Source: Actinotalea alkalitolerans (GTDB taxonomy: Bacteria > Actinomycetota > Actinomycetes > Actinomycetales > Cellulomonadaceae). Taken from it: a stretch of 64,000 bases of DNA. The translations under genes and the position numbers were made by a program. The DNA lies in contig NZ_JAMBPP010000006.1 in NCBI RefSeq assembly GCF_023369855.1, positions 1 to 64,000 on the forward strand, written 5' to 3'. Below are positions 1,431 through 30,683 of this stretch, in pieces. The notes under the pieces were generated by a model. The model saw nothing but the letters and a program-made list of their open reading frames with translations. It had not been told where the DNA came from and did not search any database. Each line of letters opens with the position of its first letter. Position 1 is the stretch's first letter.

Positions 1431-1435
1431 GCCGC

Positions 1436-2356
1436 TCAGCCCTTGACGCCGGCGGAGGCGATGCTGCTGACGAACGCACGCTGGAACACCAGGAAGAACA
1501 GTAGGACCGGGATGGTGATGAAGGACGTGTAGGCCATGACCTCGCCCCACGCCGTCTCCAGCTGGAAGAAGTACTGCACACCCACCTGGACCGGCCGCAG
1601 TGCCTCCTGCTGAACGACCATGATCGGCCAGAGGAAGGAGTTCCAGACCGGCAAGAAGGTGAGGATCGCGACGGTGGCGAAGGCCGGCCCTGATAGCGGG
1701 ACGATGATCTTCCGATAGATCGTGAACCAGCTCGCCCCGTCGACGCGAGCGGCCTCGTCCAGCTCCTTGGGGATCGACTTGAAGTACTGGGCGAAGAGGA
1801 AGATCGAGAACGCGTTGGCAATGAACGGGATGATCTGCACGCGGTAGGTATTCAGCCAGCCCGTCGTGAGGGTCGGGATGAAGTCCTGGAACTCGATCCA
1901 GGGGAGTTTTGCCACCCACCACACCATCGGGACCGCGATCGTCTCGAAGGGAACGATGAGCGTTGCCAAGATGATCGAGAGCGCGATCCCGCGGCCGCGC
2001 CACTGGAGGCGGGACAGCGCGAATCCCGCCATGGAGTTCACGATCAGGCCGAATCCGACGACCATGGCCACGACGAAGATGGTGTTCGCCATGAACCTCC
2101 ACGCCGGTACCCGGTCGAAGACCGCGGAGTAGTTGTCTGTTGAGAGTTCTCCCACCGGGAGGAAGGCTCTGAAAGACCTGACGTCCGCAAGGATCTGCGC
2201 ATCGGGCTTCAGGCTGGACATGAACATGAACAGCAGTGGGAAGATGAAGACGATCGCCACCCCGACCAGCGGGATGTAGCGGGGCCAGACGCGCGAGCGT
2301 CGCGACGGTCGGTGGGTGGGGTCCGAGATCTGCCGGGACGTAGGTGAGGTGGTCAT
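1436..2356 (-). CDS. CUT1 sugar ABC transporter permease, MalG type
   Basis: A 306-residue integral membrane protein with about six hydrophobic segments. The cytoplasmic EAA loop (ELDEAARVDGAS, then an IVPLSGP end), which docks the ATPase, is near residue 200. It ends in GVKG, typical of MalG-type subunits. The ATG start has a GGAGG site 6 nt upstream that lies inside the end of the previous permease gene, and the two coding regions are 1 nt apart, so translation is probably coupled. No ATPase gene is present in the operon, so a shared MsiK-like ATPase is expected elsewhere in the genome. Confidence 0.93.
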   Translation of the reverse strand: MTTSPTSRQISDPTHRPSRRSRVWPRYIPLVGVAIVFIFPLLFMFMSSLKPDAQILADVRSFRAFLPVGELSTDNYSAVFDRVPAWRFMANTIFVVAMVVGFGLIVNSMAGFALSRLQWRGRGIALSIILATLIVPFETIAVPMVWWVAKLPWIEFQDFIPTLTTGWLNTYRVQIIPFIANAFSIFLFAQYFKSIPKELDEAARVDGASWFTIYRKIIVPLSGPAFATVAILTFLPVWNSFLWPIMVVQQEALRPVQVGVQYFFQLETAWGEVMAYTSFITIPVLLFFLVFQRAFVSSIASAGVKG

Positions 2357-2357
2357 G

Positions 2358-3317
2358 TCAGTCCTCCTTGGTCAGGCGTCGCTGAATCAGCGAGACGACC
2401 AGCACGAGTAGGAAGAAGATCAGCGAGATGGCTGCCGCGTAGCCCGTCTGCTGCTTGCTGAAGCCGGTGTTGACCGCGTGAAGCACGATCGTGACGGTGG
2501 CGTTCAGTGGCCCGCCATTGGTCATCACCAGGGGCTGGATGAACAGCGAGAATGCCGCGATGGTGATGGTCACCAGGACGAAGACGAACGTTGGTCGCAG
2601 CCCGGGCCACGTGACGAAGGCGAATTTTTGCCACGGTGAGCAACCATCGAGGTCGGCCGCCTCGTAGAGGGACTCGGGGATGGTCTGCAGGCCAGACAGC
2701 CAGATCACCATGTGGAAACCAACCCCTGCCCAGGCCGACATCGCGATGATTGCGGGGAGCGCGGTACTGGTGTTGTTGAGCCAGTCGGTCCCGCTGAGAG
2801 CGCCGAACGTCACCGTGCTGATGAGTGAGTTGAGGAGGCCGTCTGCCTGGTAGATGAACTTCCAGAGCATGGATAGGACGACCATCGACGTCACGACGGG
2901 CACGAAGTAGATCGTTCGGAACGCGTTGATCCCTCGAATCTTCTGGTTGATCAGCAGCGCGAGCCCTAGTCCCAGACCTCCCTGCAACGGGACGATCACG
3001 ACGGCGAAGATCAGGGTGTTGCGCAGCGATGCCAGGAACGTCGGGTCTGCCGTGAAGGCGCGGACGAAGTTGTCGACGCCTTGGAACGAGGGCGGGTTCG
3101 GCGAGATGAGCCGGACGTTGGTGACCGACAGGATCAGGGTGAGGATCACGGGAGTGATGAGGAACAGGGCGAACAGGATGGCGGCCGGGGCCACCATCAC
3201 CCACCCGGTCCGTTCTTCGGTGCTTGCCGGTCTGTGAGGACGGATGGCCGTCAGCACTGACCTGGCTCCTGCGCGAGCAGCGACCTTCCTCGATGAAGGT
3301 GTGCCGGATGTGGACAT
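2358..3317 (-). CDS. CUT1 sugar ABC transporter permease, MalF type
   Basis: A 319-residue permease with six or so transmembrane segments and an EAA loop (SLYEAADLDGCSPWQKF) near residue 230. It pairs with the MalG-type subunit immediately downstream. I chose the internal ATG at 3317 because an AGGAGAG ribosome site lies 4 nt upstream of it; a start 12 codons earlier has no such site and would run into the stem-loop at 3337-3373. The cytoplasmic N-terminus of about 40 residues is basic and Ser/Ala rich. Confidence 0.92.
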   Translation of the reverse strand: MSTSGTPSSRKVAARAGARSVLTAIRPHRPASTEERTGWVMVAPAAILFALFLITPVILTLILSVTNVRLISPNPPSFQGVDNFVRAFTADPTFLASLRNTLIFAVVIVPLQGGLGLGLALLINQKIRGINAFRTIYFVPVVTSMVVLSMLWKFIYQADGLLNSLISTVTFGALSGTDWLNNTSTALPAIIAMSAWAGVGFHMVIWLSGLQTIPESLYEAADLDGCSPWQKFAFVTWPGLRPTFVFVLVTITIAAFSLFIQPLVMTNGGPLNATVTIVLHAVNTGFSKQQTGYAAAISLIFFLLVLVVSLIQRRLTKED

Positions 3318-3336
3318 GAGTCTCTCCTGGATCGGC

Positions 3337-3373
3337 GTGCTCGGGGCCGGCACGAGAGGCCGGCCCCGAGCAC
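3337..3373 (-). other. Intercistronic stem-loop between binding protein and permease
   Basis: A perfect 14-bp inverted repeat (GTGCTCGGGGCCGG and its complement) with a 9-nt loop lies between the binding-protein stop and the first permease. It has no T-run. In maltose-type operons such hairpins stabilise the binding-protein message and lower permease expression; that role is inferred here. Confidence 0.75.
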
Positions 3374-3440
3374 CGTGAGCGTGCGAGGTCCGACTGCGCG
3401 TGGTGCACGCGTTCGGCAGTCGGGCCCGTGGGAGGAGGAG

Positions 3441-4745
3441 CTAGTTGCCGTAACCGTCGTTCGCGGCGATGTCGGCATCGATCTCAGCGACTGCCTGGTC
3501 GAGTGTGGCCTTCACATCCGCACCGTTCTTGATGTCCTCGGCCGCCTTGGTGAACACGGACGAGATCACGGAGTACGCCGGTGTCGGCGGCCGGATCAGG
3601 GCGAAGCGCTCCGAGTACTCCTTGAACGGTTCCAGCGCGCCTCCGGGCTGGTAGTACTCGGTCATTGCGGCCGCAGCCTCGGTGGTCGGGATGAGGCCCA
3701 GTGCCGTGGTGAAGTCGGCGACGTACTCGTCCTTGAGCGAGAAGTTGATGTACGCGTTCGCGCCCTCCGGATGCTCGCAGGTGGCCGAGATGCCGAACAT
3801 CCAGGACTGCCCGCCGATGACCGGGCCCTCACCGAAGTCGGGCATCGGCAGGAAGAGCATGTCGTCCCCGAACTCCTCCAGCGCCTGGACTCCGCCCCAG
3901 TTGCCGTTGAGCTGCAGCGCGACCCTGCCCTCGAGGAACTCAGGGTTCCCGTCCTGCTCGGTGGTGCTGGCGTAGCCCTTCTCGAAGAGCCCCTGCCACC
4001 AGTTGCCCCACTCCAGGGCCTCTGGCCCGTTGAGCGCACCCTTGGCCGTGAGGTAGGTGTCGCGGTCGATCAGGTCGCCGCCGAAGCTCTGCAGCTGTGG
4101 GGAGAAGGCGTACGGATACCATTCGCTGACGTCGTTGACCCCCAGGTCGAGGGCGTAGTCGAACTCACCGCCTTCGGTGATCGTCTGCAGGATGGCCTCG
4201 AACTCCTCGCCGCTCCAGGGATCGTCGGAGGTCGGGATGCGGATGTCGTACGTGTCAAGGACCGACTGTCGGGCGTACATGCCGATGGCCGCGTCCCAGT
4301 AGCCGATCGCGTAGAGATCGTCCTGGTAGTAGCCCATCGCCGAGGGCAGCCAGGTGTCGAGGATCGCCTGGTCCACCTCGATGGGCTGGACGTACCCACC
4401 CCACGCCCAGTTCGGCACGATCGGGCCGTCCATGTCGAGCAGGCAGGGGAGGTCGCCGGCCACGGCGGCGGCGACCACCGAGTCGTTGTAGCTCGCCTGC
4501 GGGAAGGACTCCAGAACGACCTCGTAGTCCTCCTGAGAGGCGTTGAAGTCCGCGATCTGCTGCTCCACGACGGTCCGTTCGGCGTCATTGCCTGCCCCGT
4601 GGTACCACAGCTTCAAGGTGGACAGTCCGCCGTTACCGCCGGCCCCGCCGTCATCGGTGCTGCCGTCGCTGCTCCCGCAGCCCGCCAGCGTAAGGGTTAC
4701 TGCTCCGAGCCCGGCTACGATGCCGAGCCAGGGGTTGCGTCGCAT
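3441..4745 (-). CDS. Sugar ABC transporter substrate-binding lipoprotein (CUT1)
   Basis: A 434-residue extracytoplasmic binding protein. It starts with a basic n-region, a hydrophobic stretch and a lipobox (LTLAGC) near residue 22, followed by a Ser/Gly/Asp linker, so it is a lipid-anchored surface receptor. The fold is that of cluster B (MalE-like) proteins, with WNxx-type and GGQSWMFGISA segments. The ATG at 4745 is preceded by GGACAGGAG. It is the first gene of the transport operon and lies 79 nt after the LacI gene on the same strand. Substrate is unknown; the linked propeller hydrolase suggests a fructan or similar oligosaccharide. Confidence 0.93.
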   Translation of the reverse strand: MRRNPWLGIVAGLGAVTLTLAGCGSSDGSTDDGGAGGNGGLSTLKLWYHGAGNDAERTVVEQQIADFNASQEDYEVVLESFPQASYNDSVVAAAVAGDLPCLLDMDGPIVPNWAWGGYVQPIEVDQAILDTWLPSAMGYYQDDLYAIGYWDAAIGMYARQSVLDTYDIRIPTSDDPWSGEEFEAILQTITEGGEFDYALDLGVNDVSEWYPYAFSPQLQSFGGDLIDRDTYLTAKGALNGPEALEWGNWWQGLFEKGYASTTEQDGNPEFLEGRVALQLNGNWGGVQALEEFGDDMLFLPMPDFGEGPVIGGQSWMFGISATCEHPEGANAYINFSLKDEYVADFTTALGLIPTTEAAAAMTEYYQPGGALEPFKEYSERFALIRPPTPAYSVISSVFTKAAEDIKNGADVKATLDQAVAEIDADIAANDGYGN

Positions 4746-4815
4746 CGCTACTCCTGTCCCACCCCGGTGCAACGGGGTGTGTAGTTGGCCGCGTTGTGCG
4801 GCCGATTCTGGGGTT

Positions 4816-4851
4816 GGTCCACCGTCACGGTTCGTTTCGTGGCGGTGGACC
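4816..4851 (-). terminator. Stem-loop at the 3' end of the LacI gene
   Basis: An inverted repeat with arms GGTCCACCG and CGGTGGACC, extended inward with one mismatch, covers the stop codon and the last codons of the LacI gene. There is no T-run. A second small palindrome (GGCCGC, 5 nt, GCGGCC) lies at 4787-4803. They could attenuate read-through from lacI into the transport operon, or one could be an operator. Confidence 0.45.
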
Positions 4852-5868
4852 GACCGACCCCCGAACGACCAGCGGGCACGGCTCGAGATGCTTGCGCGGC
4901 TCGGTGTGCCCGTCGATGCTGGGGTCGGAGCTGTTGATCATCGCGATCAGGCGATTCGCGGCCCACTGGCCCATCGCGAGATGCGGCAGAGCCATGGTGG
5001 TCAGGCCGGGGTCGGTGTCAGACGCGACGAGTTCCTGGTCGTCGTAACCGACGATGCTGATGTCGTCCGGAACCGACAGACCGGCGCGGCGCGCGGCTCG
5101 GAAGACGCCTACCGCCATGCGGTCGTTGAACACGAAGATCGCGGTGGGGCGATGGCGTCGGGACAGCAGGGCGGCCGCAGCCCGCTCACCACCAGCGCTC
5201 AACGCGGCCTCCGCGATGACGAGGGTGGGATCGAAGGTGATGCCAGCCTCGGCGAGGGCACGACGGTATCCGGCCAGGCGGAGCTGGTTGGCGGGCACGT
5301 CGTGGGCATTAGCCAGGTAGGCGATCCTCGTGTGTCCGTGACGGAGCAGCTCCCTGGTCGCCTCGTACCCCCCACGCTCGTCGTCGGGCACGACGTGCGG
5401 CACTGACCCGTCGACCACATCAGCGTCCAGAACGACGGTCGAGCTGGTGGACAGGCCCGCAGGCAGCTCCAAGAGCTGGTGGTACATGGTCGCGTAGAGG
5501 AGCCCGTCCACCTGTCGAGCCTTGAGCTCCCGGATCGCCTCGGCCTCCATGCGCACGTCGCCGTCAGTGCTGACGAGCAGCAACAGGTAGCCGGCCTCCC
5601 AGGCTGCTTGTTGTGCGCCGAGGATCATCCGCCCGGCGTAGGGAGTCGTCACCACTTGATCGCTGAGCATCCCGATCGTGTGAGTGCGCTGGGTGCGCAG
5701 CCCGCGCGCCAGATGGTTCGGCGCGTACCCCAACTCGACGGCGGCAGCCTCGACGCGCTTGCGGGTACTTGCTGCCACTCGAGCGCCCTCGACGTCGTTG
5801 AGCACGACGGAGACAGTGAAAGTCGAGACACCCGCGAGAGCGGCGACATCCTTGATTCGAACCCTCAT
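4825..5868 (-). CDS. LacI-family transcriptional regulator
   Basis: A 347-residue repressor. The N-terminal helix-turn-helix (VRIKDVAALAGVSTFTVSVV) is followed by the hinge helix (NHLARGLRTQ) and a periplasmic-binding-type sugar sensor domain with the usual FNDRMAVGVFRAARRAG and SIVGYDD segments. The gene lies upstream of, and in the same direction as, the importer operon, which makes it the obvious local regulator. It resembles the LacI protein at 23279-24313 in the segment after the hinge (TPYAGRMILGAQQAA against TPHAGRIILGAQEAA), so the two may sense related sugars. A double palindrome just upstream of its start suggests autoregulation. Confidence 0.95.
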   Translation of the reverse strand: MRVRIKDVAALAGVSTFTVSVVLNDVEGARVAASTRKRVEAAAVELGYAPNHLARGLRTQRTHTIGMLSDQVVTTPYAGRMILGAQQAAWEAGYLLLLVSTDGDVRMEAEAIRELKARQVDGLLYATMYHQLLELPAGLSTSSTVVLDADVVDGSVPHVVPDDERGGYEATRELLRHGHTRIAYLANAHDVPANQLRLAGYRRALAEAGITFDPTLVIAEAALSAGGERAAAALLSRRHRPTAIFVFNDRMAVGVFRAARRAGLSVPDDISIVGYDDQELVASDTDPGLTTMALPHLAMGQWAANRLIAMINSSDPSIDGHTEPRKHLEPCPLVVRGSVGPPPRNEP

Positions 5869-5875
5869 GGTGGTT

Positions 5876-5905
5876 GCCTAACCGATTAGGCCTAATGGAT
5901 TAGGC
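5876..5905. promoter_or_regulatory. Tandem palindromic operator upstream of lacI
   Basis: Two perfect palindromes, GCCTAACCGATTAGGC at 5876-5891 and GCCTAATGGATTAGGC at 5890-5905, share two bases and have centres 14 bp apart. The arms are identical (GCCTAA/TTAGGC) and the spacers differ. The site starts 8 nt upstream of the LacI start codon, so a bound protein would block lacI transcription. The A/T-rich arms stand out in this GC-rich DNA. Confidence 0.75.
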
Positions 5906-5996
5906 AGAAGGTAGCGCGCATGGATCGCGCCGTCAAGAGGCGGTCACCCGCGCCGGTGCACCGCTTCATGGGTGGGCACGCCCGAGCGTCTTGAGC

Positions 5997-7121
5997 TCAG
6001 AAGGGTGGAGCCGTGCTCTGCCGGAGGACAAGGCGGGTCGGGACGACCGGGCGCGTCTCGGCTGACGTCCGCCCGTCGATCTGGTCGAGGAGCAGGCGGA
6101 TGCTCTGCTGGCCCACTTCGAAGAACTCCTGGCGCACGGTGGTGAGGGGCGGTTGCATGTAGGCGGCCTCGGGAAGGTCGTCGAACCCGACGACGCTGAC
6201 GTCCTCCGGGACGCGGCGTCCGCCCTCGTGCAGCGCGCGGAGCAGTCCGAGAGCCATGTCGTCGTTGGCGACGAAGACGGCGGTGGCCTCGGCGAGCCCG
6301 CTCAGGATGCGGCCGGCTTCGTACCCCGAAGTGTGCCCCCAGTCGCCGACGAGAAGCGGCGGCGGTTCGATCTCGGCTTCGGCAAGGGCCGAGCGCCAGC
6401 CCTCTTCGCGCCCGCGAGAGTCGAACCATCCCTGCGGGCCGGCAATATGCCACACGTTGCGGTGGCCGAGCCCGAGCAGGTGCTTGGTCGCCGCGCGCGA
6501 ACCGCCGACCTGATCGATCACGACGGCCGAGACGCGTGACCCTGGGGCTCCTTCGACAGCGACGACGGGCAGCGACGGTGGCAGCGGGAGGGCGTCGACG
6601 TCGATCGAGATGAGCGGGGCGATGAGGATGACGCCGTCGACCCGCTGGTCGACCAGGGCGTGGACTGCCTTGCGCATCGCCGCAAGTTGGGGAGCGCGGG
6701 TACCGGCAAAGGTGACGGTGTACCCAGCAGAGGCCGCTGCCGACTCGATTCCCTCGAGCGTGGACGGGGTTTCGTACGCGCTCGTCCCGAGGCTGAGGAC
6801 TCCAAGCACCTGAGTGCGGCCGGAGGCGAGGGCGCGGGCGGCACCGTTCGGGCGAAACCCAAGCTGCTCGATGGCAGCCAGCACGCGGAGACGGGTCTCG
6901 TCACGCACCTTTGGGCTGTCGTTGATCACGCGCGAGACCGTCTGGTAGGTGACCCCGCTGAGCCGCGCAACATCGCGCAGCGAGGGCGGACGGCCCGGGG
7001 AGGACGTTCGACCTGCAGGCGCGTCGATGTGACCGTGCGCATCTGTGGCTGCCCGTGTGGTGTCGCCGGTGGGTGCTTGGTTCGCCGGCGCCCCGGTTCC
7101 CTCTGGTGCGCTGCGCTTCAC
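5997..7121 (-). CDS. LacI-family transcriptional regulator
   Basis: A 374-residue repressor that carries an unusual Ala/Thr/Pro-rich N-terminal extension of about 45 residues before the helix-turn-helix (SLRDVARLSGVTYQTVSRVI). The hinge (NGAARALASGRTQ) and the sugar-binding domain with FVANDDMALGLLRAL and SVVGFDD follow. I chose the GTG at 7121 because AGGGAG lies 6 nt upstream; the open frame goes on further upstream but without a ribosome site and would cover the promoter region. It is divergent from the second sugar importer operon, which it most likely represses through the operator at 7229-7242. An even later start would remove the extension. Confidence 0.93.
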   Translation of the reverse strand: MKRSAPEGTGAPANQAPTGDTTRAATDAHGHIDAPAGRTSSPGRPPSLRDVARLSGVTYQTVSRVINDSPKVRDETRLRVLAAIEQLGFRPNGAARALASGRTQVLGVLSLGTSAYETPSTLEGIESAAASAGYTVTFAGTRAPQLAAMRKAVHALVDQRVDGVILIAPLISIDVDALPLPPSLPVVAVEGAPGSRVSAVVIDQVGGSRAATKHLLGLGHRNVWHIAGPQGWFDSRGREEGWRSALAEAEIEPPPLLVGDWGHTSGYEAGRILSGLAEATAVFVANDDMALGLLRALHEGGRRVPEDVSVVGFDDLPEAAYMQPPLTTVRQEFFEVGQQSIRLLLDQIDGRTSAETRPVVPTRLVLRQSTAPPF

Positions 7122-7228
7122 GCGGTTCTCCCTCGTTCGTAGTGGTTCCGAGAGTACGCGCTCGGCGCCATCACCGGAACTGGACGGGTGGGGGGATTGA
7201 CGTCCCGGTTGTGGAGGCCCTACGTTCA

Positions 7229-7242
7229 TGTGAACGGTCACA
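7229..7242. promoter_or_regulatory. LacI-type operator between lacI and importer
   Basis: The sequence TGTGAACGGTCACA is a 14-bp palindrome with a central CG and one mismatched pair, the classic shape of LacI/GalR-family operators. It lies 53 bp upstream of the binding-protein ATG, in the divergent promoter region. Confidence 0.65.
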
Positions 7243-10441: not shown

Positions 10442-12238
10442 GTGGTCCACCGGACCGCGCACTACGAGGTCGTCCTCGATCTGGGCCACGCGCGGCTCGA
10501 GGTCCGGACCTCCTCCGGGCTCCTCGTCCTGGACGTACCGCTCGACTCCGCCGTCGACGCGTGGGGCCACCCCGAGGCGGGCGGACAAGCCATGGGCGAG
10601 CTCGTCGAGACGTCGCGCGACGGGTCGACGGTCCTGATCCTCGAGGTCGGCTCTGACGTCTGGCGTCGCAAGGAGATCGAGGTGGAGCTCGGCGCGGACC
10701 ACGTCGTGTACCGGGTGCGGGTCGCCGGTGACGGTCAGCGGGTCCTGGATGCCGGGTACTTCGTCGACCGCGCCAGGCCTCCGGGTGTCACGGGGATGAC
10801 GTCCGTCTACGCCCCACGGTTCGACTGGTTCGACGCCGAGCCCCGGGTCGCACCCGACCGGGAGGAGAGCCTCGGTGTCCAGCAGTGGCTGAGCCCGCCG
10901 CCGCTGACCTACGTGCTCAGCGGCGACGAAGGGGAAGGTGTGGAGTCGGTCTGGTGCGCGGTGGTCCCCGAGCCTGGCGCCTACGACTTCCAGAGTTTCG
11001 ACTACACCGGCGGGCGTGGTCCGTCGTTCCGCCTCACCTACGAGGCCCACACGGTGGTCGACGGCGTCCTGGACCTGCCCGCGTTAGTCCTTGGCTTCGG
11101 TGCGGGGCCGGGAAACGACGCAGTCGGCGCTTCGGTGACCTGGGCCCGCGACCGCAGGTTCCTGCCTGCGATCTCTCGGTCCGAGGTGCCCGCATGGTGG
11201 AGCGAGCCGATCTTCTGCGGCTGGGGTCAGATGCGCTACGACTACCGCCGCGACCACCAAGGGCACGAGAACGGGAACTTCATCAACGTCACTTCGTACT
11301 GCACCGAGCTGCGCTACCGCAACTACCTGACGGCGCTCGAGGAGGCTGGCGTCAACCCCGGGACGATCGTCGTCGACATGGGGTGGGCGCGCGAGGCGGC
11401 CAGGGCCGCCCCCGACCCGGACCGCTGGGCTGACCTGCGGGGCTTCGTCAACGAGCAGCACGCACGCGGTCGCAAGGTGCTCCTGTGGTTTACGCCCTTC
11501 GTGGCTGAGGGGCTACCCGTCGAGGCGTGCATGACGCTCGGCGACGAGATCGTCGCTCCCGACCCGACCTCGCCCGTCTACGCGCAGATCCTGGCCGCAG
11601 AGCTCCACACGATGCTCTCGAGCGAGCCAGGGTGTCTCAACGCGGACGGCTTGAAGATCGACTTCACGCAGTGCGTGCCGTCTGAAGACGGCCGTTTCGT
11701 CAATCGGATGCAGCACTTTGGCGGTCTGATCAACGAGAGCGACGTGACGCTGATGTATCCCCGGCTCTCGACGGGCCGGACCTCCCTCGTGACGACGCAC
11801 GGATCTGCGTGGGGTATCGAGATCGTCCGCCGTGCGATGGAGCTGGTGCACCGGGGCGCCAAGAGCGCAAAGCCGGACGCCATGGTGATGGCGCACACCG
11901 CCAACCCGTACTTCGCCGACGTCGTCGACGTCCTCAGGCTCAACGACCTGGACGGCGACTGCCAGGACGTCCTGGGTGTCATGAGCAATCGCGCAGCGCT
12001 CGCCGCGATCTGTTCGCCGCAGTGGCTCATCGACACGGACGACGACCTCATGGTCGACCGAGATCGGTGGCTCGCTTACGCCGAGCTCCAGCCACACCTC
12101 GGCATCCCGGACACCTACTACGCGACAGGGATCGCGCAGTCGATGGAAGCGATAAGGCCAGAGGACTACGCGGACCTTCGCCGGATCTGGGCGGGGTACC
12201 GAGAGAGCCGCGCGGCGAGTCGTCGACAGCCGCAGTGA
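10442..12238 (+). CDS. TIM-barrel glycoside hydrolase, alpha-galactosidase-like (GH31/GH36-type)
   Basis: A 598-residue enzyme with an N-terminal beta-sandwich of about 230 residues and a (beta/alpha)8 barrel. Barrel motifs include GTIVVDMGWAREAA near 308, GRKVLLWFTPFVAEG near 343 and ADGLKIDF at 401-408. KID at 405-407 is where clan GH-D and GH31 retaining enzymes have their nucleophile, so Asp407 is the candidate. A later segment, MVMAHTANPYFADVVDVLRLND, is in the place of the acid/base strand. There is no signal peptide, so it acts on imported sugar. The GTG at 10442 has GAGAAGGG 8 nt upstream. The family assignment is by motif layout only, and the exact GH family and sugar are open. Confidence 0.7.
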   Translation: MVHRTAHYEVVLDLGHARLEVRTSSGLLVLDVPLDSAVDAWGHPEAGGQAMGELVETSRDGSTVLILEVGSDVWRRKEIEVELGADHVVYRVRVAGDGQRVLDAGYFVDRARPPGVTGMTSVYAPRFDWFDAEPRVAPDREESLGVQQWLSPPPLTYVLSGDEGEGVESVWCAVVPEPGAYDFQSFDYTGGRGPSFRLTYEAHTVVDGVLDLPALVLGFGAGPGNDAVGASVTWARDRRFLPAISRSEVPAWWSEPIFCGWGQMRYDYRRDHQGHENGNFINVTSYCTELRYRNYLTALEEAGVNPGTIVVDMGWAREAARAAPDPDRWADLRGFVNEQHARGRKVLLWFTPFVAEGLPVEACMTLGDEIVAPDPTSPVYAQILAAELHTMLSSEPGCLNADGLKIDFTQCVPSEDGRFVNRMQHFGGLINESDVTLMYPRLSTGRTSLVTTHGSAWGIEIVRRAMELVHRGAKSAKPDAMVMAHTANPYFADVVDVLRLNDLDGDCQDVLGVMSNRAALAAICSPQWLIDTDDDLMVDRDRWLAYAELQPHLGIPDTYYATGIAQSMEAIRPEDYADLRRIWAGYRESRAASRRQPQ

Positions 12239-12647
12239 GAGCGACCACTTGGGCACCTGGACGGAGCCTCGCCTGGCACCGGCCCTGAGGTTGATACAAC
12301 GAGGAGCCGACGCGGCGTCGGGAGTCTCGGCCGGGTCGCTCGTAGCAGCGCGGCGCCACGGTGACGGCGTGGCTTCGGGTCCGTATCGGGTCCGTGATCA
12401 TGGTTGACGCGAGCACCGCTTTCGAATCGAGAGCACGGTCAGCGCCGACGGCCGTGGGCTCACACCTCGCGCGCGTTCGCTCCGGCATGTGCTCGGCCAT
12501 GGCCGATGAGCGCGCAGCCGTGGGGGCAGCAACGACGGCTGGGAGCAGAGCCGGGTGTTGGGCCCCAGGGGACAGCCGTCGAGTGGACTCCATCCAGGTG
12601 CACGTCGTCCCCGCGCTGCTCGCCTACCGGGAACGCCGAAGCGACGG
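12239..12647. other. Intergenic region without a supported gene
   Basis: This convergent gap between the glycosidase and the reductase gene holds only short open frames with no recognisable product. A 15-bp inverted repeat (CCGACGC, G, GCGTCGG) at 12307-12321 is the only clear structure. It may belong to a terminator, but its loop is very short. Confidence 0.5.
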
Positions 12648-23278: not shown

Positions 23279-24313
23279 TTAGCCGGAGGCGACCGGTGCG
23301 ACGGACGAACGGACGACGACGGGGCAGTCGAGCCTGAGCTCCTCGGGCGGGGTCGGCGCCTCGCCGTCGAGGTGCACGGCCAGGGTGTCCACGGCCCAGG
23401 CGCCCATCTCGTAGTGCGGAAGCCCGATGGTTGTCAGGCCGGGGAAGAGGCTGGCGGCGATCGGGTCCTGGTTGTCGAACCCCACGACGGAGACGTCCTC
23501 GGGGATGCGGAGTCCCAGCTCGGTGGCGGCCCGGTAGACGCCCATCGCCATCCGGTCGTTGTAGCAGAAGATCGCGGTGGGTCGGTCTGGGCGGGTGAGC
23601 AGCGTGTGGCCTGCTTCGTACCCGCCCCATGCCTCGGAGGCCCCGGCGGCGACGAGGTCCTCCTCGAGGGGGAGTCCGGCTTCGCGCAGGGCGCGGTCGT
23701 AGCCGCGGCGCCGTCCGCGGGTGGCCGGCACGTTCTCGACTCCTGCGGTGAACCCGATGCGACGGTGCCCGGCACCGAGGAGCGCGCCGACTGCCTTGAG
23801 GGCGCCACCCTCCTCGTCGGGTGTCACCGATGGCAGGCGGTGTGCGTCGTCGGTCGCGCCGATCAGGACGGCCGGGACGTTCGCGAGCTCGCGCGGGGGG
23901 TGGACGACGTCGTGGAAGACGGTGGCGTAGATGATGCCGTCGACCTGGCGGTCGAGCAGCGCTCGGACGTCGTCGCGGCGGGCGTCGGCGTCGGCGAGCA
24001 GGGGAGAGTTGATGATCACCAGGGTGAGGTTGTGGCGGCTGGCGGCTTCCTGGGCGCCGAGGATGATGCGGCCGGCGTGGGGTGTGGTGGCGATCTCCTC
24101 CGTGAGCAGGCCGATCATCCCGGACGTCTTGGTCCGCAGGCCCCGTGCCAGGCGGTTCGGTCGGTAGTTCAGCTCGGCTGCGACGGCCTTGACGCGGTCG
24201 CGCGTCTCGGCGTTGACCCTGGTGTGCGGGGTCTCGTTGAGCACGTGGGAGACGGTGGTGACCGAGACGCCGGCCGCGTGGGCGACGTCCCGGATGCCGA
24301 CGTGCTTGGTCAC
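23279..24313 (-). CDS. LacI-family regulator of the GH91/GH32 locus
   Basis: A 344-residue repressor with helix-turn-helix GIRDVAHAAGVSVTTVSHVL, hinge NRLARGLRTKT and a sugar-binding domain with IFCYNDRMAMGVYRA and SVVGFDNQDP. The GTG start follows GGGGGAG by about 6 nt. It lies 64 nt after the GH91 gene in the same direction, so it may be the last gene of the operon and be self-limiting. The three 13-bp CCAAAACGTTTGG-type sites in the promoter region near 29.1-29.3 kb are its best candidate operators. Confidence 0.95.
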   Translation of the reverse strand: MTKHVGIRDVAHAAGVSVTTVSHVLNETPHTRVNAETRDRVKAVAAELNYRPNRLARGLRTKTSGMIGLLTEEIATTPHAGRIILGAQEAASRHNLTLVIINSPLLADADARRDDVRALLDRQVDGIIYATVFHDVVHPPRELANVPAVLIGATDDAHRLPSVTPDEEGGALKAVGALLGAGHRRIGFTAGVENVPATRGRRRGYDRALREAGLPLEEDLVAAGASEAWGGYEAGHTLLTRPDRPTAIFCYNDRMAMGVYRAATELGLRIPEDVSVVGFDNQDPIAASLFPGLTTIGLPHYEMGAWAVDTLAVHLDGEAPTPPEELRLDCPVVVRSSVAPVASG

Positions 24314-24377
24314 CGGTGTCTCCCCCGTGAGCGTGAAGTGTGTGGACAGGCTAGCGACTCACCCGTCCCGAAGGAGA

Positions 24378-25763
24378 TCACCGCCCCGTCCCGAACAGGT
24401 CCGCGCCCCGCGGCGCCGCGGGGCCGGCCCCGATCGCCGGGGTCGGCCTGAAGGCATTGACGGCCCTGTCCATGACGACCTGGTGATCGGCTCCCGAGTC
24501 CAGGACGACGTTGTCGCGGGACTGGGCGTCGATCAGGACGGTGACCACGGCGAGCTCTCCCGACGCCTCGGTGGCCAGCAGGGCGTCCACCTGTGCGGCG
24601 AAGCAGGAGTCCCCTGTGGCGACGCGGACGTCCTTGGCCACCACATGGTTGTTGGCGACGTAGTTGCCGCTGCCCGAGACCACGTGCACGATCACCGGCG
24701 TCGCTCCCGACGGCCTGATCTTGCGGGCATCGACGACCTCCGAGAAGTGATTCCCGATGACCGAGTTCTGCCCCCCCTCGATGACGAGGATCCCGTAGGG
24801 GTCGTCCAGGCCGTTGTCCACGCCCACGAAGGGTGCCCACGGTTCGTCGTCGCGCAAGAGGTGGTTGGAGGTGATCAGGTTCTCCGAGGATCCCGCTCGG
24901 AGAACCACCATGCCGGGGTAGAACGAGTGCATGCGGTTGCCGGAGACGAGTGAGCGCGTGACACCGGCGAGCTCGATGCTGCTGGCTCCGCGGGGGAAGA
25001 TGTTGTTGGAGGCGATCAGCAGTCCGCCGTGGTTCTCTGCGAGCACCGCTGGCCCGTGGAAGCCCGCTCCGATCAGGTTGTCGGTGACCTTCGAGGCCTG
25101 CCCCCAGCCGCGCAGCTCGATGCAGCTGCCGCACTCGGCGACGAAGTTGTCGTGGACGGACAAGGCGTCGGCATGGTGGATCACCAGGCCGTGCTCCAGG
25201 TAGACGAGCCCCATGCCGGTGATGCGGAGCGAGTCGTTGGCGCTCGCCACGCGGATGCCGGTCTTCCCGTTCCGGTAGGTGTTCGCGGCGGGCATGCCAG
25301 AGCCGTCTTCGCAGAAGCGGAGCCCGTCGATGCAGAAGTTGGCGAACTCGACCGAGCTGACTCGAGGGCTCCCGGGGCGCTCGACCAGGAACGCGGCTCC
25401 CGAGGTGTCCCCTGCGTCGTCCTGCGGTGCGAGGTCGACCAGCACCCGGCTCCCGCCCGGCCACAGCTCCTGCAGGTGCCGCCACTCGTCCTGGGGCACG
25501 TTGAAGCGGATGCTCGACGAGGTGAAGCCGTGCCCGGAACCCTCGATCCTGAGGTAGCTGATGTCGATCAGCACCTGCGTCCGCAGGCGGTAGTCCCCGG
25601 GCGGGATGTAGATCACCGCGCCTGGTCTGCCGCCGTCGCGCACGTCAGTGGCCGTCTGCCGGCTCTTGATGTCGGCGATGATGCTGTTGATCACCTCGCC
25701 GATGTCCTCGAGGGGGTCGCCGGTCGGCCACGTCGTGACGTCGTAGCAGTTGGTGCTGGCCAA
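24378..25763 (-). CDS. GH91 enzyme: difructose-anhydride hydrolase or inulin fructotransferase, cytoplasmic
   Basis: A 461-residue right-handed beta-helix protein. Segments such as CYDVTTWPTGDPLEDIGEVI, AVIYIPPGDYRLRTQVLIDI, GSGHGFTSSSIRFNVP, ECGSCIELRGWGQASK and GNHFSEVVDA match the GH91 family closely, as I remember it. Asp205 and Glu216 have the 11-residue spacing of the catalytic pair reported for GH91 enzymes. The TTG at 25763 is chosen because purine-rich AGGAAGGGCAGG lies just upstream; upstream in-frame starts would add a Cys/Arg-rich tail, not a signal peptide. GH91 includes secreted fructotransferases that make difructose anhydrides from inulin and intracellular hydrolases that open DFA III to inulobiose. 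The missing signal peptide and the linked importer favour the second role. Confidence 0.88.
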   Translation of the reverse strand: MASTNCYDVTTWPTGDPLEDIGEVINSIIADIKSRQTATDVRDGGRPGAVIYIPPGDYRLRTQVLIDISYLRIEGSGHGFTSSSIRFNVPQDEWRHLQELWPGGSRVLVDLAPQDDAGDTSGAAFLVERPGSPRVSSVEFANFCIDGLRFCEDGSGMPAANTYRNGKTGIRVASANDSLRITGMGLVYLEHGLVIHHADALSVHDNFVAECGSCIELRGWGQASKVTDNLIGAGFHGPAVLAENHGGLLIASNNIFPRGASSIELAGVTRSLVSGNRMHSFYPGMVVLRAGSSENLITSNHLLRDDEPWAPFVGVDNGLDDPYGILVIEGGQNSVIGNHFSEVVDARKIRPSGATPVIVHVVSGSGNYVANNHVVAKDVRVATGDSCFAAQVDALLATEASGELAVVTVLIDAQSRDNVVLDSGADHQVVMDRAVNAFRPTPAIGAGPAAPRGADLFGTGR

Positions 25764-25863
25764 TGTCCTGCCCTTCCTGGGGAGATCGCTCGCACATGCG
25801 CAGGCGTGGTGCTCGGGGTTTCCCGGACGGCGACGCCCGGTGTCGACTGACCCCCGGACTCGC

Positions 25864-26703
25864 TCAGCCCTTGACCGCGCCAAGGGTGAGGCCGGCGACG
25901 ATGTGCCGCTGGAGGACGAGGGTCAGAAGGATCACGGGAACGGAGTAGAGAGTCGCGAGGGCGGTCATCGGGCCCCAGTCGAGACCGAACTGGGTCTGGA
26001 AGTTCGCGATGACGATCGGGGTGGTCTGCGCCCTGACCGCGGTCAGGAGAAGAGCGAAGAGGAACTCGTTCCAGGAGGCCAGGAAGGCGAAGATCGCGGT
26101 CACCGCCATGCCACCGGAGACCACCGGCAGGATCACGCGCCACAGGGCGGTCAGCCGGGAGCAGCCATCCACTCGTGCAGCCTCGTCGAGCTCGGAGGGG
26201 ACAGCCTCGAAGAAGCTCGCCATCAGCCAGATCGACAAGGGCAGCGAGATGGTCGTGTGGGCGATCGCGAGGCCGGTCGGGGTGTCGGTCAGGCCGAGGT
26301 AGGCGATGGTCGACATCAGCGGGACGCCGACCGCGACGGGCGGGACCATGCGGGTGACGAGCGCGGCCATGATGAAGACGCGGCCGACCCGGGTGCGGAA
26401 CCGTGTGATCCCGTAGGCGGCGGGCACGCCCAGAGCCAGGCTGAGCACGGTGCTGATCGTCGCGGTCGAGACGGAGTTGATGAACGACGCGATGACCCCG
26501 GAGCGCTGCAGGGCGGCGCCGTAGTTCTCGAACGTCCACACGGGCGGAAGGATCGTCGGAGGCACGGCGTTCGTCGCCAGCGGGGTCTTGAACGACGTCA
26601 GCAGCAGGTAGATGAACGGGAGGCCGTACAGCACCACGACCGCGGTCAGCAGCGCCCAGAGCAGCGCGCGGGTCACCGGTCGGCGGGTCTCCAGGCCGTT
26701 CAC
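25864..26703 (-). CDS. CUT1 sugar ABC transporter permease, MalG type
   Basis: A 279-residue permease with six predicted spans, EAA loop ELDEAARVDGCSRLTALW near 178 and the typical GAVKG end. The GTG start overlaps the stop of the MalF-type gene (GTGA). It is followed by the GH91 gene 100 nt downstream on the same strand. It forms the channel of the proposed difructose-anhydride or inulin-oligosaccharide importer. Confidence 0.93.
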   Translation of the reverse strand: MNGLETRRPVTRALLWALLTAVVVLYGLPFIYLLLTSFKTPLATNAVPPTILPPVWTFENYGAALQRSGVIASFINSVSTATISTVLSLALGVPAAYGITRFRTRVGRVFIMAALVTRMVPPVAVGVPLMSTIAYLGLTDTPTGLAIAHTTISLPLSIWLMASFFEAVPSELDEAARVDGCSRLTALWRVILPVVSGGMAVTAIFAFLASWNEFLFALLLTAVRAQTTPIVIANFQTQFGLDWGPMTALATLYSVPVILLTLVLQRHIVAGLTLGAVKG

Positions 26704-27587
26704 AGGTCCGCTCCCGGCCGCCAGATGAACCAGACCGCCGCAGTCGCGACCGCCAGCATGGCCAGCAGGTACAGGGTGCCCATCGCACTGGCCAGGCCGG
26801 GCTCACCGAACCGGATCATCGTCTGGTAGATGAGCAGGCTGAGGGTCTGCGAGGCGTTCTGCGGACCACCGCCGGTCTGGATCAGGATGATGTCGAACGC
26901 CTTGGCCGCGTCGATGCCGCGGACGATGAGGGCGACCGCGATGACCGGGCGCAGCAGGGGCACGATGATCCGGACCAGCATCGTCCAGGCTCTCGCCCCG
27001 TCCAGTCGCGCCGCCTCGAGCAGGTCGCCCGGGATGTTCTGCAGCCCGGCGAACAGGACGAGCGTCATGAACGACGTGGTCAGCCAGATGTCCGGGATGG
27101 CCACCGCCCACAGGACGATGTCGGGGTCGGAGAGCCAGCCGATCTGCGTCGGTGAGTCGAGCAGGCCTGCCCGGAAGAGCAGGTGGTTGACGATCCCCGA
27201 GTTGTCGATGAGCAGGAACCGCCACAGCAGACCGGCGACCACGGGGGCGATCATCAGCGGGTAGAGGAAGGCCGTGCGCAGCACGGAGGATCGCCGACCC
27301 AGCGCACTGAACAGCAGGGCCGTGGCCAGGCCGAGGACGAACTCGGCCGTCACGACGATCGCGGTGTATCCCAGGGTGCGTCGGGCCGCACCGAGGAACG
27401 ACTCGCTGGTCAGGATCTGGGCGTAGTTGGCCAGCCCGACGAAGTCGCGCGGTCCACCCCTGATGGGCGAGATGTCGAAGAAGCTGTCGGCGACGAGCCG
27501 TCCGAGGGGCCAGGCGACGAAGGCGGCGAGGAACAGCGCGGCCGGCGCCATGAGCAACGCGGCGAATCGTTTGTCCGAGAGGTGCAC
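26700..27587 (-). CDS. CUT1 sugar ABC transporter permease, MalF type
   Basis: A 295-residue permease with six predicted spans. The EAA loop (DLLEAARLDGARAWTML, then IIVPLLRP) is near 200. The GTG at 27587 has GGAAGGG 6 nt upstream; an in-frame start 72 codons earlier would overlap the binding-protein gene and add an Arg-rich tail. It overlaps the next permease by 4 nt. Confidence 0.92.
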   Translation of the reverse strand: MHLSDKRFAALLMAPAALFLAAFVAWPLGRLVADSFFDISPIRGGPRDFVGLANYAQILTSESFLGAARRTLGYTAIVVTAEFVLGLATALLFSALGRRSSVLRTAFLYPLMIAPVVAGLLWRFLLIDNSGIVNHLLFRAGLLDSPTQIGWLSDPDIVLWAVAIPDIWLTTSFMTLVLFAGLQNIPGDLLEAARLDGARAWTMLVRIIVPLLRPVIAVALIVRGIDAAKAFDIILIQTGGGPQNASQTLSLLIYQTMIRFGEPGLASAMGTLYLLAMLAVATAAVWFIWRPGADL

Positions 27588-27682
27588 GTCGAACCCTTCC
27601 CGCTCCGGTGCGGTGGTCGTGGGTGTGTGGGTGGCTGCTGGCGGCCGGCCGGTGTCGGGGGACCGACCGGCCGCCGGTCCCG

Positions 27683-29041
27683 TCAGCCGAGGATCGCTTC
27701 GACCTGCGCCTTGGCGTCGTCGAGCAGCTGCTGGTTGTCGGCGCCACCGGCGACGGCGGCCTGGAGCATCGGGATCAGGACGGTGTCGACGATCTGCTGC
27801 CACTTGTCGGTGGCCGGTCGGGGCATGGTCCCGTCGGCCTCGAGCGTCTCGATGAGCGGGGCGAGGTTCTCGTGACCCTCCACGCCGACGAGCGACTGGA
27901 GGGCGGACTTCGTGGCGGCCAGGCCCAGCGCGGTGTCCAGGCCGAGCGCGTTGTTGTCGAACGCGAACTGGATGAACTCCTTGGCGAGCTCGGTGTTCTT
28001 GGTCGCCGTCGGGACCGAGAGGTACCAGGCGCCGGGCACGCCGGCGAGCCCGCCGGGCCCGGCCGGCATGGGAGCGACGCCGACCTTGCCGAAGACCTCA
28101 GAGTCCTCGGGTGTCTGGGTGTAGGCGTGGGCCCAGAAGCGCATCATGGCCGTCTGGCCCTGGTAGAACAGGTTCTGCGCCGCGGCCCAGTCGATCTGTG
28201 CGGCCCCCTGCGGGGCGGACCCGTCCTCGAGCAGGGGAGCGACGTAGAAGTCGAGGGCGGCCTTGTGGGCGGCATCGTTGATGATGACGTTGCCGTCGGC
28301 GTCCAGGACCATGCCGTCAGCGCCGGCCTGCAGCACGCTCGCCAGCCACTCGGTCTCCACGGCGCCCTTGACGTCGGTGCCGTACAGATCGGTGGCACCG
28401 TCCCCGTCGGTGTCACGGGTGAAGAACGTGGCGACGTCGCGGTACTCCTCCCACGTGGTGGGCGCCGCGAGCGGGTAGCCGTACTCGGCCTCGAAGGCGG
28501 TCTGCTCGGCCGGGTCCTCCAGCAGGTCAGCCCGGTAGAACAGGACCTGCGCGTTGGTCCACACCGGCATCCCGATGTACCGGCCATCGACGCTGGCCTC
28601 CTCGAGGAGCGCGGGGAACAGGTCAGCGGTGACGTCGTCGGTGAACATCTCGTCCAGGGACTCGACCCCGTCGGCGAACGCCGGGAGCCAGATCGCGTCC
28701 AGCGCCGCCACGTCGAAGGAGACACTGCCCGAGGCCAGCTCGGTGGACAGTCGGTCGTACAGGCCACCGTAGGGAAGCTCGACGAACGTGACCTCGTTGC
28801 CGGTCTCGGACTTCCAGGCGTCGGCCACGGGCTGCAGCTCAGCCAGGCCACCGCCCTCGACGAGGACGGTGATCGCACCGCTCGCGGCAGCGCCTTCGGC
28901 GCCGTCGTCCGAGGTGTCGTCGTCGGCGCCGCCTGCGCCGCAGGCGGTCAGGGCTAGGGCGGCGCTCAGGGTGAGGGCCATCGCGCCGGACGTCGCGCGT
29001 CGGCGCGACGGACGGGCGGCGGGAAGACTGCACAGCTTCAT
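27683..29041 (-). CDS. Sugar ABC transporter substrate-binding lipoprotein (CUT1)
   Basis: A 452-residue binding protein with a twin-Arg-like basic n-region (ARPSRRRA), a hydrophobic stretch and a lipobox (ALTAC) near residue 33, then an Asp/Gly linker. The body has the cluster B signature (VTFVELPYGGLYDRL; FDVAALDAIWLPAF). The ATG has AAGGAG 8 nt upstream. It is the first gene of the importer/GH91/LacI operon, and the operator pair lies 50-76 nt upstream. A fructan-derived ligand is inferred from the linked GH91 and GH32 genes. Confidence 0.93.
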   Translation of the reverse strand: MKLCSLPAARPSRRRATSGAMALTLSAALALTACGAGGADDDTSDDGAEGAAASGAITVLVEGGGLAELQPVADAWKSETGNEVTFVELPYGGLYDRLSTELASGSVSFDVAALDAIWLPAFADGVESLDEMFTDDVTADLFPALLEEASVDGRYIGMPVWTNAQVLFYRADLLEDPAEQTAFEAEYGYPLAAPTTWEEYRDVATFFTRDTDGDGATDLYGTDVKGAVETEWLASVLQAGADGMVLDADGNVIINDAAHKAALDFYVAPLLEDGSAPQGAAQIDWAAAQNLFYQGQTAMMRFWAHAYTQTPEDSEVFGKVGVAPMPAGPGGLAGVPGAWYLSVPTATKNTELAKEFIQFAFDNNALGLDTALGLAATKSALQSLVGVEGHENLAPLIETLEADGTMPRPATDKWQQIVDTVLIPMLQAAVAGGADNQQLLDDAKAQVEAILG

Positions 29042-29090
29042 TGCGTGAGCTCCTTGTCGGCAGTGGGTGGCGGACCGGCTTGCGCCGGAG

Positions 29091-29117
29091 CCAAAACGTT
29101 CTGCCCAAACGTTTTGG
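29091..29117. promoter_or_regulatory. Pair of LacI-type operators before the importer operon
   Basis: CCAAAACGTTCTG on the plus strand (29091-29103) and CCAAAACGTTTGG on the minus strand (29117-29105) share their first ten bases; the second has perfect 5-bp arms around CGT on the plus strand. They lie just upstream of the binding-protein start. AAGTTAACAT follows at 29120-29129 and may hold part of the promoter. Confidence 0.75.
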
Positions 29118-29315
29118 CGAAGTTAACATCGGCCGGTCGAGAGGGTCAAGAGGGTGGTTCGCGCCGTGACCACATCGTGACCCACCGTCGCCCCGGTGTC
29201 CCGGCGATGCCGAGACGTCGGCCACCAGCCGCGCCGAGCGAGCAGCCGGATCGAGCGCGGCGCCTCGCTGCGCGCGTGACTTGACGGGCCTCCCCTCGGT
29301 GCCCCACGCTGGAGC

Positions 29316-29329
29316 GCAAACGATTTGGC
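29316..29329. promoter_or_regulatory. LacI-type operator before the GH32 gene
   Basis: On the minus strand CCAAATCGTTTGC (29328-29316) matches the 13-bp motif of the importer operators at 11 of 13 positions (differing from the 29117-29105 site at two). It lies 68 nt upstream of the GH32 start, so the divergent gene is probably under the same repressor. Confidence 0.65.
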
Positions 29330-29396
29330 ACGCCTCAGTGCCGATCCGTCACCGCCCGCGTGGACGAGGGCCCACAGCTTCGAAGGGAACGACGAG

Positions 29397-30683
29397 GTGG
29401 ACATCGACGTCACCCGGCCACGACTGCACTTCACCGCGCACGAGGGCTGGATCAACGACCCGCTGGGGTTGACCTTCCACGGCGGGCGCTACCACCTGTT
29501 CTTCCAGTACGTCCCGGGCCAGACGCAGTGGGGCCCGGACCAGTGCTGGGGGCACGCGACCAGCGACGACCTCCTGCACTGGACCGAGCAACCCGTCGCA
29601 CTGCAGCCCGGTGACGGCGACGACGGGGTGTGGTCCGGCTCCATCGCCGTCCCGGACGTCGGCCCGGCCGCGCTGTTCTACACGACGGTGAACCTGGACG
29701 ACGTCCAGGTCGGCAAGGCGCGCCTGGCCCGCCCGACGGACGAGACCTGGACCTCCTGGGTGAAGCAGGACGTGGTCGCCGAGCTGCCGACCGGCCTGGA
29801 CGTGGTCGCCTACCGCGATCCCTACGTCTTCCACGACGGGACCGTGTGGCGCATGCTCATGGGTGCCGGCCTGGCCGACGGCACCGCGACCGCACTGACC
29901 TACCGCTCCACCGACCTGGAGCGATGGGACTACGACGGCCTGCTCGCCAGCCGCCATCGCACGGAGACCGAGCCGCTGTGGATGGGGGCCGTGTGGGAGT
30001 GCCCCCAGCTGTTCCGCCTCGGTGACACGTGGGTCCTGACGTGCTCGGTGTGGGAGCCGAACGTCCCGCACTACGAGGCCTACGCCATCGGTGACCTGGT
30101 GGACGGACGCTTCACCGCGCAGTCCTGGGGTCGGCTGAGCTATGGCCCGTCGTACTACGCCGCCTCGGTGTTCGCCGACCACGACGCACACCGCGGCCTC
30201 ATCTACTGGCTGCGCGATGTCGACGACCCGGCCGGGCGATGGGCCAGCGCGCACTCCGTGCCCCACCGGCTGAGCCTCGCCGGGGATCGAGTCGTCGCAG
30301 AACCGCACCCGGCACTGGTCGCCGCGCGGGTGGGCGAGCCCGTCGAGTCTTCCGGCGGGACTCTCGAGATCGGCTGGGTCAGCGACCTCGAGTGGCGACT
30401 CACAGGGCCCAGCGTGCAGGCGGTGCTCGTGGTCACTGGCGCCGAGTCAGGCCGCGAGGAGCTCCGTCTCACCGTCTCGGACGGTGAGCTGACAGCCACC
30501 GTCGCTGCGAACAGCTGGACCATGCCGCTGACCGACCGGGACGTCCGCGTCCTCGTCGACGGGCCGGTCGTCGAGATCTTCGCCACCACGGGGGTGATGG
30601 CGCTCCCCGTCCCCAGTGAAGGACGCCTGCGGGTGGTCACGCTGACCGGGGAGTCCCACCTCACCGCCCACGCACTGGCCTGA
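29397..30683 (+). CDS. GH32 beta-fructosidase, cytoplasmic
   Basis: A 428-residue GH32 enzyme with complete catalytic motifs: WINDPLG at 18-24 (nucleophile Asp21), YRDPYV with Asp141, and WECPQL with the acid/base Glu201. The five-bladed propeller covers about 1-300 and a short beta-sandwich the rest. No signal peptide is present, so it acts on imported fructosides. The GTG at 29397 follows GAAGGGAA; the frame is open 24 codons upstream, but those residues do not fit the family. It is divergent from the importer/GH91 operon and shares its operator motif. In the proposed pathway it splits inulobiose to fructose. Confidence 0.95.
   Translation: MDIDVTRPRLHFTAHEGWINDPLGLTFHGGRYHLFFQYVPGQTQWGPDQCWGHATSDDLLHWTEQPVALQPGDGDDGVWSGSIAVPDVGPAALFYTTVNLDDVQVGKARLARPTDETWTSWVKQDVVAELPTGLDVVAYRDPYVFHDGTVWRMLMGAGLADGTATALTYRSTDLERWDYDGLLASRHRTETEPLWMGAVWECPQLFRLGDTWVLTCSVWEPNVPHYEAYAIGDLVDGRFTAQSWGRLSYGPSYYAASVFADHDAHRGLIYWLRDVDDPAGRWASAHSVPHRLSLAGDRVVAEPHPALVAARVGEPVESSGGTLEIGWVSDLEWRLTGPSVQAVLVVTGAESGREELRLTVSDGELTATVAANSWTMPLTDRDVRVLVDGPVVEIFATTGVMALPVPSEGRLRVVTLTGESHLTAHALA

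Follow-up and report, generated by a model that had tools for sequence, protein, structure and literature searches.

A probable difructose anhydride III uptake and degradation locus in Actinotalea alkalitolerans and its likely difructose anhydride I counterpart

In this study, we analysed a stretch of 64,000 nucleotides of the actinobacterium Actinotalea alkalitolerans (Cellulomonadaceae; RefSeq assembly GCF_023369855.1, contig NZ_JAMBPP010000006.1, positions 1 to 64,000), hereafter called the window, and focused on a group of genes at 23279-30683. A sequence-only reading had placed six genes here, namely those of a three-part sugar importer, an enzyme of glycoside hydrolase family 91 (GH91), a LacI-family regulator and a divergent GH32 enzyme, and Pfam domains confirmed that all of them are present. 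The six genes very probably form a locus for the uptake and degradation of difructose anhydride III (DFA III), as judged by comparison of sequences and gene neighbourhoods. A solute-binding lipoprotein and two permeases, together with an ATPase encoded elsewhere, would bring DFA III into the cell. There, a lidded cytoplasmic GH91 enzyme would open one of its linkages, reversibly, to give inulobiose, and a cytoplasmic GH32 enzyme would split inulobiose into two fructoses and draw the unfavourable equilibrium forward. The LacI regulator, through operators resembling the palindrome CCAAAACGTTTTGG, would keep both the operon and GH32 repressed as long as no inducer (DFA III or a product) is present. 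In this scheme, we infer the direction of flux, the inducer and the assignment of the ATPase. The order of import, opening to inulobiose and GH32 cleavage is that of the sequence-only reading, and it gains support from the GH91 phylogeny, a lid segment and the lack of a visible signal peptide.

The GH91 gene (24378-25763, minus strand, TTG start, 461 aa) carries the Pfam domain Beta_helix_2, 'Beta helix repeat of Inulin fructotransferase' (E 1.9e-12). Among solved structures, its product is closest to the DFA III hydrolase 5zks (AcDFA-IIIase; E 1.4e-211), with 70.4% identity over 443 columns. The source of this structure is Arthrobacter chlorophenolicus, which is named in PMC11538131. The fructotransferases 9j4i, 2inu and 8hsn gave E values of 5.8e-114, 2.4e-109 and 3.1e-80 and identities of 47.6%, 46.9% and 43.1%. 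A tree of 52 rows was built from 48 proteins of the window and related loci (numbered with L) and four references, one hydrolase (5zks) and the three fructotransferases. The window protein fell into a 35-row clade with 5zks (support 100/100) and the three fructotransferases lay outside, so that the grouping with a characterized hydrolase, on which the proposed pathway depended, was borne out. Its nearest neighbour was a protein of Cellulomonas sp. 73-145 (99/98). Left out of the trees were L026 (frameshifted), the second GH91 of L007 (a remnant) and L096, whose contig is as long as that of L009 at 324,254 bases and which, as an apparent duplicate, was also left out of the counts; the truncated second GH91 of L027 was kept. 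The GH91 proteins of L087 and L088 have long branches and unsure placement, and the joining of 8hsn with L085 and L086 is weak (88/40).

Residues 377-406 of the window protein (24546-24635, minus strand, by alignment) form a segment of 30 aa. It has the same length in all 34 rows that the window and the loci contribute to the hydrolase clade and is 29 aa long in 5zks. In all 14 remaining locus rows, and in 9j4i, 2inu and 8hsn, only 4 aa are found, so the window enzyme departs from the fructotransferase trait of having no lid segment. DFA-IIIase has a lid over its active site (PMC11538131), and we presume that the 377-406 stretch is this lid because the shortened hydrolase chain 5zky lacks it. 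The catalytic stretch lies at 25134-25169 (minus strand), with Asp199 at 25167-25169 and Glu210 at 25134-25136. The two residues are 11 positions apart, as are D207 and E218 of the A. aurescens DFA IIIase, mutants of which are inactive (PMC4640833). Kinship, lid segment and catalytic residues support the assignment of the window GH91 to the DFA III hydrolase type. However, Asp199 and Glu210 are conserved in 52 of 52 GH91 rows, and the family includes fructotransferases; both facts would also suit the reading that it is an inulin fructotransferase, forming DFA from inulin or fructo-oligosaccharides after leaking out of the cell or by acting on oligomers that have been imported. A fructotransferase that forms DFA I and has no signal peptide was indeed obtained from culture supernatant (PMC5448860). 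Nevertheless, the identity to solved fructotransferases is only 43-48%, the tree places the protein with the hydrolase and the 30-aa segment is absent from all three fructotransferase references, and we consider this explanation very unlikely.

Two in-frame starts of the GH91 gene were compared, TTG 25763 (behind AGGAAGG) and TTG 25883 (within the preceding permease gene). Hydropathy revealed no hydrophobic, signal-like N-terminus from either, and the objection that another start might disclose a signal peptide thus found no support by this measure. AaDFA IIIase likewise has no signal peptide (PMC4640833). This lack alone is weak evidence and does not prove location. It was rejected as proof of hydrolase function since the fructotransferase from culture supernatant and lidless GH91 proteins in several related loci also lack a signal peptide.

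On the minus strand, the operon runs from the solute-binding protein (SBP) gene through two permease genes and GH91 to LacI, with GH32 divergent on the plus strand. The SBP (27683-29041, minus strand, 452 aa) matches Pfam SBP_bac_1 (E 3e-33) and shows by eye the lipobox LTAC. It is followed by a MalF/UgpA-like permease (26700-27587, minus strand, 295 aa) and a MalG-like permease (25864-26703, minus strand, 279 aa), both recognized by BPD_transp_1 and NCBIfam models and encoded by genes that overlap by 4 bases. An SBP lipoprotein with two permeases of the MalFG/UgpAE type assigns the importer to CUT1. From its gene neighbourhood, the SBP is predicted to bind DFA III. The operon ends with the LacI-family regulator (23279-24313, minus strand, 344 aa; Pfam LacI and Peripla_BP_3).

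The palindrome CCAAAACGTTTTGG was built from the window's own sites, and matches were allowed up to 3 mismatches. The 64-kb window contains three, starting at 29091, 29104 and 29315. The first two are 14-mers upstream of the SBP gene (29091-29117; 2 and 1 mismatches) and the third lies just upstream of GH32 (29315-29328; 3 mismatches). None of 100 window shuffles reached three matches (mean 0.24, largest 2). In addition, all 26 related loci that could be scanned have a site of this kind in front of SBP (400 bases upstream to 30 bases past the SBP match start; mean of 200 shuffles 0.72, maximum 4), and so do, in a second set, eight of eight DFA III loci (L090-L095, L097 and L104; shuffle mean 0.115, maximum 2). 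We infer that the LacI protein binds these sites. Paired matches with starts 13 bases apart occur in the window, in 10/26 and in 5/8 of the related importer promoters; two dimers would have to share sites at this spacing. An earlier scan with a looser palindrome gave many chance matches and was not used.

The GH32 beta-fructofuranosidase (29397-30683, plus strand, about 428 aa; Glyco_hydro_32N, E 1.3e-61) is predicted to be cytoplasmic, and its best solved relative is the beta-fructosidase 1uyp (E 8.9e-46). Of its alternative starts, the listed TTG 29325 and GTG 29397, neither gives a signal-like N-terminus by hydropathy; GTG 29397 is preferred because TTG 29325 lies inside the predicted operator. 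Another sugar locus, with a distant GH32/GH43-like enzyme, a permease, an SBP and two LacI regulators, lies at the edge of the window (489-7241).

The locus is conserved in relatives. A scan with the window GH91 protein was used to fetch 27 related loci from named genomes. The SBP and both permeases are found in 26/27, LacI in 27/27 and a GH32 match in 25/27. A homologue of the MalG-like permease is present in all 27 and of the MalF/UgpA-like permease in 26 (68-79% identity); SBP identities are 51-68% and those of the permeases mostly 68-84%. The incomplete cases are L022, a short contig (4.5 kb) on which just one permease and LacI are found, L026, with frameshifted genes, and L012, without a GH32 match; the GH32 matches of L003 and L024 are weak (61-62 bits). 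The eight loci of the second set also have the importer and LacI beside GH91, and the L091 stretch has no GH32 match. Most Arthrobacter-type loci carry a different GH32 subfamily, with matches 29-36% identical that form a separate clade; the exception is L095 (54%). Since the GH32 subfamily differs beside the same importer and GH91, these two are the more constant core. The clusters of L012, L014 and L094 hold a second GH91 with a signal resembling, by eye, that of twin-arginine translocation (Tat), which groups with DFA-III-forming references (100/99). The Tat-type enzymes tie the cluster to DFA III.

Second GH91 proteins of another kind, lidless, about 400 aa long and with no visible signal peptide, were seen in L015 (4903-6105), L019 (11486-12679), L020 (4992-6236), L025 (2117-3196), L095 (6540-7730) and L097 (15666-16871), and the L027 copy (11411-12391) is lidless and truncated. 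In L015, L020, L025, L095 and L097 the gene is divergent from the SBP gene and so takes the slot that the Tat-type GH91 has in L094 and L014. The copies of L019 and L027 are found at other places in the locus. These proteins may be either fructotransferases exported by a non-classical route or second intracellular enzymes.

Several points weigh against the proposed pathway. The closest solved relatives of the SBP are maltose-type binding proteins (best E 7.5e-29), and there is no ATPase gene within the importer operon. The GH91 reaction, being reversible, could run towards DFA III. The loci were fetched via GH91, so that the scan covered the importer only where GH91 is also present. This scope, together with an importer substrate that is a prediction, would also allow a locus that imports ordinary short fructo-oligosaccharides or sucrose, in which most of the work falls to GH32 and GH91 has the side task of removing dianhydride by-products; GH32 enzymes and CUT1 importers are generally known to be common in such loci. 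However, the same importer stands beside GH91 in 26 of the 27 loci, importer and GH91 are more constant than the GH32 subfamily, and three clusters contain Tat-type enzymes resembling DFA-III-forming ones. An ordinary fructo-oligosaccharide locus is therefore very unlikely. As for the ATPase, two genes of the OB_MalK type are found on other contigs of the same genome (C5 and C33); they are candidates for the importer ATPase, which is probably shared. As for reversibility, GH91 and GH32 enzymes of Blautia convert DFA III to fructose, and the opening reaction is reversible and favours DFA III, with a DFA III:inulobiose ratio of 59.3:40.7 (PMC11538131). With such an equilibrium, a co-regulated GH32 makes sense for a DFA III degradation locus.

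When searched against its own genome, the window GH91 protein finds only itself. In other genomes, the same type of search detects GH91 of the fructotransferase type with identities of 42-46%, and a GH91 fructotransferase of this organism would thus probably not have been missed. Since no other GH91 was found in the genome, there is no sign that the organism makes DFA III. Of the six GH32 matches in the genome, one lies on contig C22 and shares 71% identity with the window GH32. It belongs to a second locus with the order LacI-SBP-permease-permease-GH172-GH32 (contig C22; L036 8571-15638), which by enzyme kinship is likely to be a DFA I utilization module. The best match of its GH172 protein is the DFA I synthase/hydrolase 7v1v (alphaFFase1; E 3e-163), with the exo-alpha-D-arabinofuranosidase 8ic8 far behind at E 2.4e-30. 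The permease pairs of the two loci are only about 29% identical, and the SBPs gave no match to each other at E 1e-3. Hydrolysis of DFA I by the GH172 family has been demonstrated for Bifidobacterium dentium. For Streptomyces davawensis, GH91, GH172 and GH32 have been suggested to make up a DFA I route (PMC8605356). The C22 locus resembles this route in having an alphaFFase1-like GH172 next to GH32. It differs in that no GH91 fructotransferase was found in the window genome and in that its GH32 is a paralogue of the DFA III-locus GH32.

A genome that seems to handle more than one dianhydride raises the question whether the main substrate of the window GH91 is DFA I or some other dianhydride instead of DFA III. 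However, the protein is 70% identical to an enzyme named DFA-IIIase in the PDB, and for DFA I the genome has an enzyme of its own, the GH172 with the DFA I synthase/hydrolase as nearest relative, which would probably serve this substrate. Furthermore, the GH172 loci have different importers without the operator near them: in nine GH172 stretches, no CCAAAACGTTTTGG match lies near the importer match, and eight of the nine have none over their whole length, the L088 stretch having a single 3-mismatch match away from the importer match. DFA I or another dianhydride as the main substrate is thus extremely unlikely.

We lean, with some reserve, towards the view that A. alkalitolerans is a specialized scavenger of dianhydrides. 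In this organism, separate import-and-open modules, GH91 for DFA III and GH172 for DFA I, would use unrelated ring-opening enzymes, meet at inulobiose, each have a GH32 of the same subfamily and work without a GH91 fructotransferase. Comparison of the two loci suggests that both routes probably converge on inulobiose. GH32 proteins linked to GH91 and to GH172 intermingle in one clade, which fits an enzyme that follows the common product. We rejected a division of the GH32 proteins by module; when set against the 11 DFA III-linked rows, the five GH172-linked ones fail to make up a single clade, the fewest changes of state are 4, and the approximately unbiased test gave p 3e-68 when the GH172-linked rows were held together. 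The module groups were named after a first tree had been inspected. The tree of 19 rows is the earlier 16-row clade minus one identical row, joined by two new rows and two for the outgroup; neither L001 nor the outgroup entered the count, and all GH32 rows were drawn from these loci. Five close GH32 rows form an unresolved fork, and the tree does not rank the window and C22 GH32 by their nearness to the other close rows.

Within the order, GH91 was matched in 14 of 396 genomes and GH172 in 70 (both at E 1e-20). The GH91 identity is at least 63% in nine of the 14, the window genome among them, and 42-46% in another four; the last has a fragment. In each genome with the 42-46% type, GH172 lies about 5 kb or less from this GH91; of the nine with the close type, the window genome alone has a GH172 match. 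In the 19 genomes of the genus, GH91 occurs in two and GH172 in four, and the DFA I-like type of GH172 is confined to the window genome and G411 (86% identical), those of G404 and G402 being 41% and 29% identical. The loci L085, L086 and L087 also have two permeases, LacI and a GH32 of 44-47% identity, with a weak SBP match in L085 only, and resemble DFA I systems that have a GH91 of their own. L088 has one permease, LacI and more distant matches to GH172 (50%) and GH32 (31%). The GH91 proteins near GH172 measure 392-403 aa and have no visible signal peptide (L085 6735-7868, L086 6681-7856, L087 7461-8525 and L088 7109-8113). That of L086 is closest to PDB 8hsn, and the four are perhaps DFA-I-forming, like the 392-aa enzyme of A. 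globiformis S14-3 (PMC5448860).

In the metagenome-assembled genome of Cellulomonas sp. 73-145 (L001 3594-12518), GH172, GH32, SBP, two permeases, GH91 and LacI stand in one row. The GH172 is 85% and the GH32 64% identical to those studied here, and a second, distant GH32 match lies further along. We read L001 as a merged DFA I and DFA III locus with a single GH32 of this subfamily between both enzymes.

The pairing was also found on plasmids. The GH91 protein matches 85 of 72,556 plasmid records, 84 of them over at least 80% of its length, and 70 are named Rhizobium. The matches listed are the best 60 of these 85 GH91 records and 60 of 66 GH172 records. On plasmid pRphaR744b of Rhizobium phaseoli (L108 3517-19338), DFA III and DFA I modules lie side by side, each with an ATPase gene. 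By annotation, the first part consists, in this order, of LacI, SBP, two permeases, ATPase and GH91 (as a NosD-domain protein), and the second of LacI, two permeases, SBP, GH172, ATPase and GH32. Among the matches listed, 12 plasmid records have GH172 at 59% identity or more, and seven of these, all R. phaseoli, have GH91 about 5 kb away; the other R. phaseoli GH91 plasmids have no GH172 among these matches. Within the same list, the GH172 records of Rhizobium sp. T136, T1470 and T1473 share the strain name with a GH91-bearing record, and for those of Arthrobacter sp. NicSoilB4 and Chimaeribacter no GH91 record of the same strain is found. In R. lentis, GH32 directly follows GH91 and no GH172 is annotated in the stretch. 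In Rahnella, GH91 is accompanied by genes of major facilitator superfamily transporters, with no ATP-binding cassette importer in the stretch. GH91 is annotated merely as a NosD-domain protein on 50 of the 60 listed GH91 records, mostly of Rhizobium, so the trait has probably been overlooked there.

The pathway of import, opening to inulobiose and GH32 cleavage has already been published for Arthrobacter and Blautia (PMC11538131). The window GH91 shares family, lid segment and catalytic Asp and Glu with AcDFA-IIIase, which comes from a different organism. AaDFA IIIase (PMC4640833) and BpDFA-IIIase (PMC11538131) belong to the same family and are likened here by description, not by sequence. The DFA-III gene cluster of Blautia (PMC11538131) also combines a GH91 hydrolase with GH32 and ABC transporter genes, joined in some Blautia clusters by a gene for a sugar kinase or for GH39. 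The actinobacterial version of the window, in contrast, has LacI as the last gene of its operon and GH32 in divergent orientation, lacks an ATPase gene and shows operator-like sites that are conserved. The three-stage inulin pathway of Arthrobacter via DFA III, known from older work (described in PMC8605356 and PMC11538131), has the same intracellular GH91 and GH32 steps, and L014 (Pseudarthrobacter) and L094 hold the GH91 with a Tat-like signal beside the cluster. However, its first stage, the making of DFA III, appears to be missing in the window genome, where no second GH91 was found. In the excerpts covered from open-licence literature, we found no description of paired GH91/GH172 modules or of dianhydride use by Rhizobium. 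Within the reach of this search, the reading as paired modules would go beyond published work.

These results extend a known pathway to a further actinobacterial genome, with a testable regulon of candidate operator sites and LacI. The paired modules predict that the GH32 subfamily linked to these loci cleaves inulobiose and that some bacteria of soil and roots live on dianhydrides that they do not make themselves. Since the pairing recurs in actinobacteria and on some Rhizobium phaseoli plasmids, the use of mixed dianhydrides may be a distinct niche. If this is true, the use of dianhydrides made by others may represent a so far undescribed way of life in soil and on roots.

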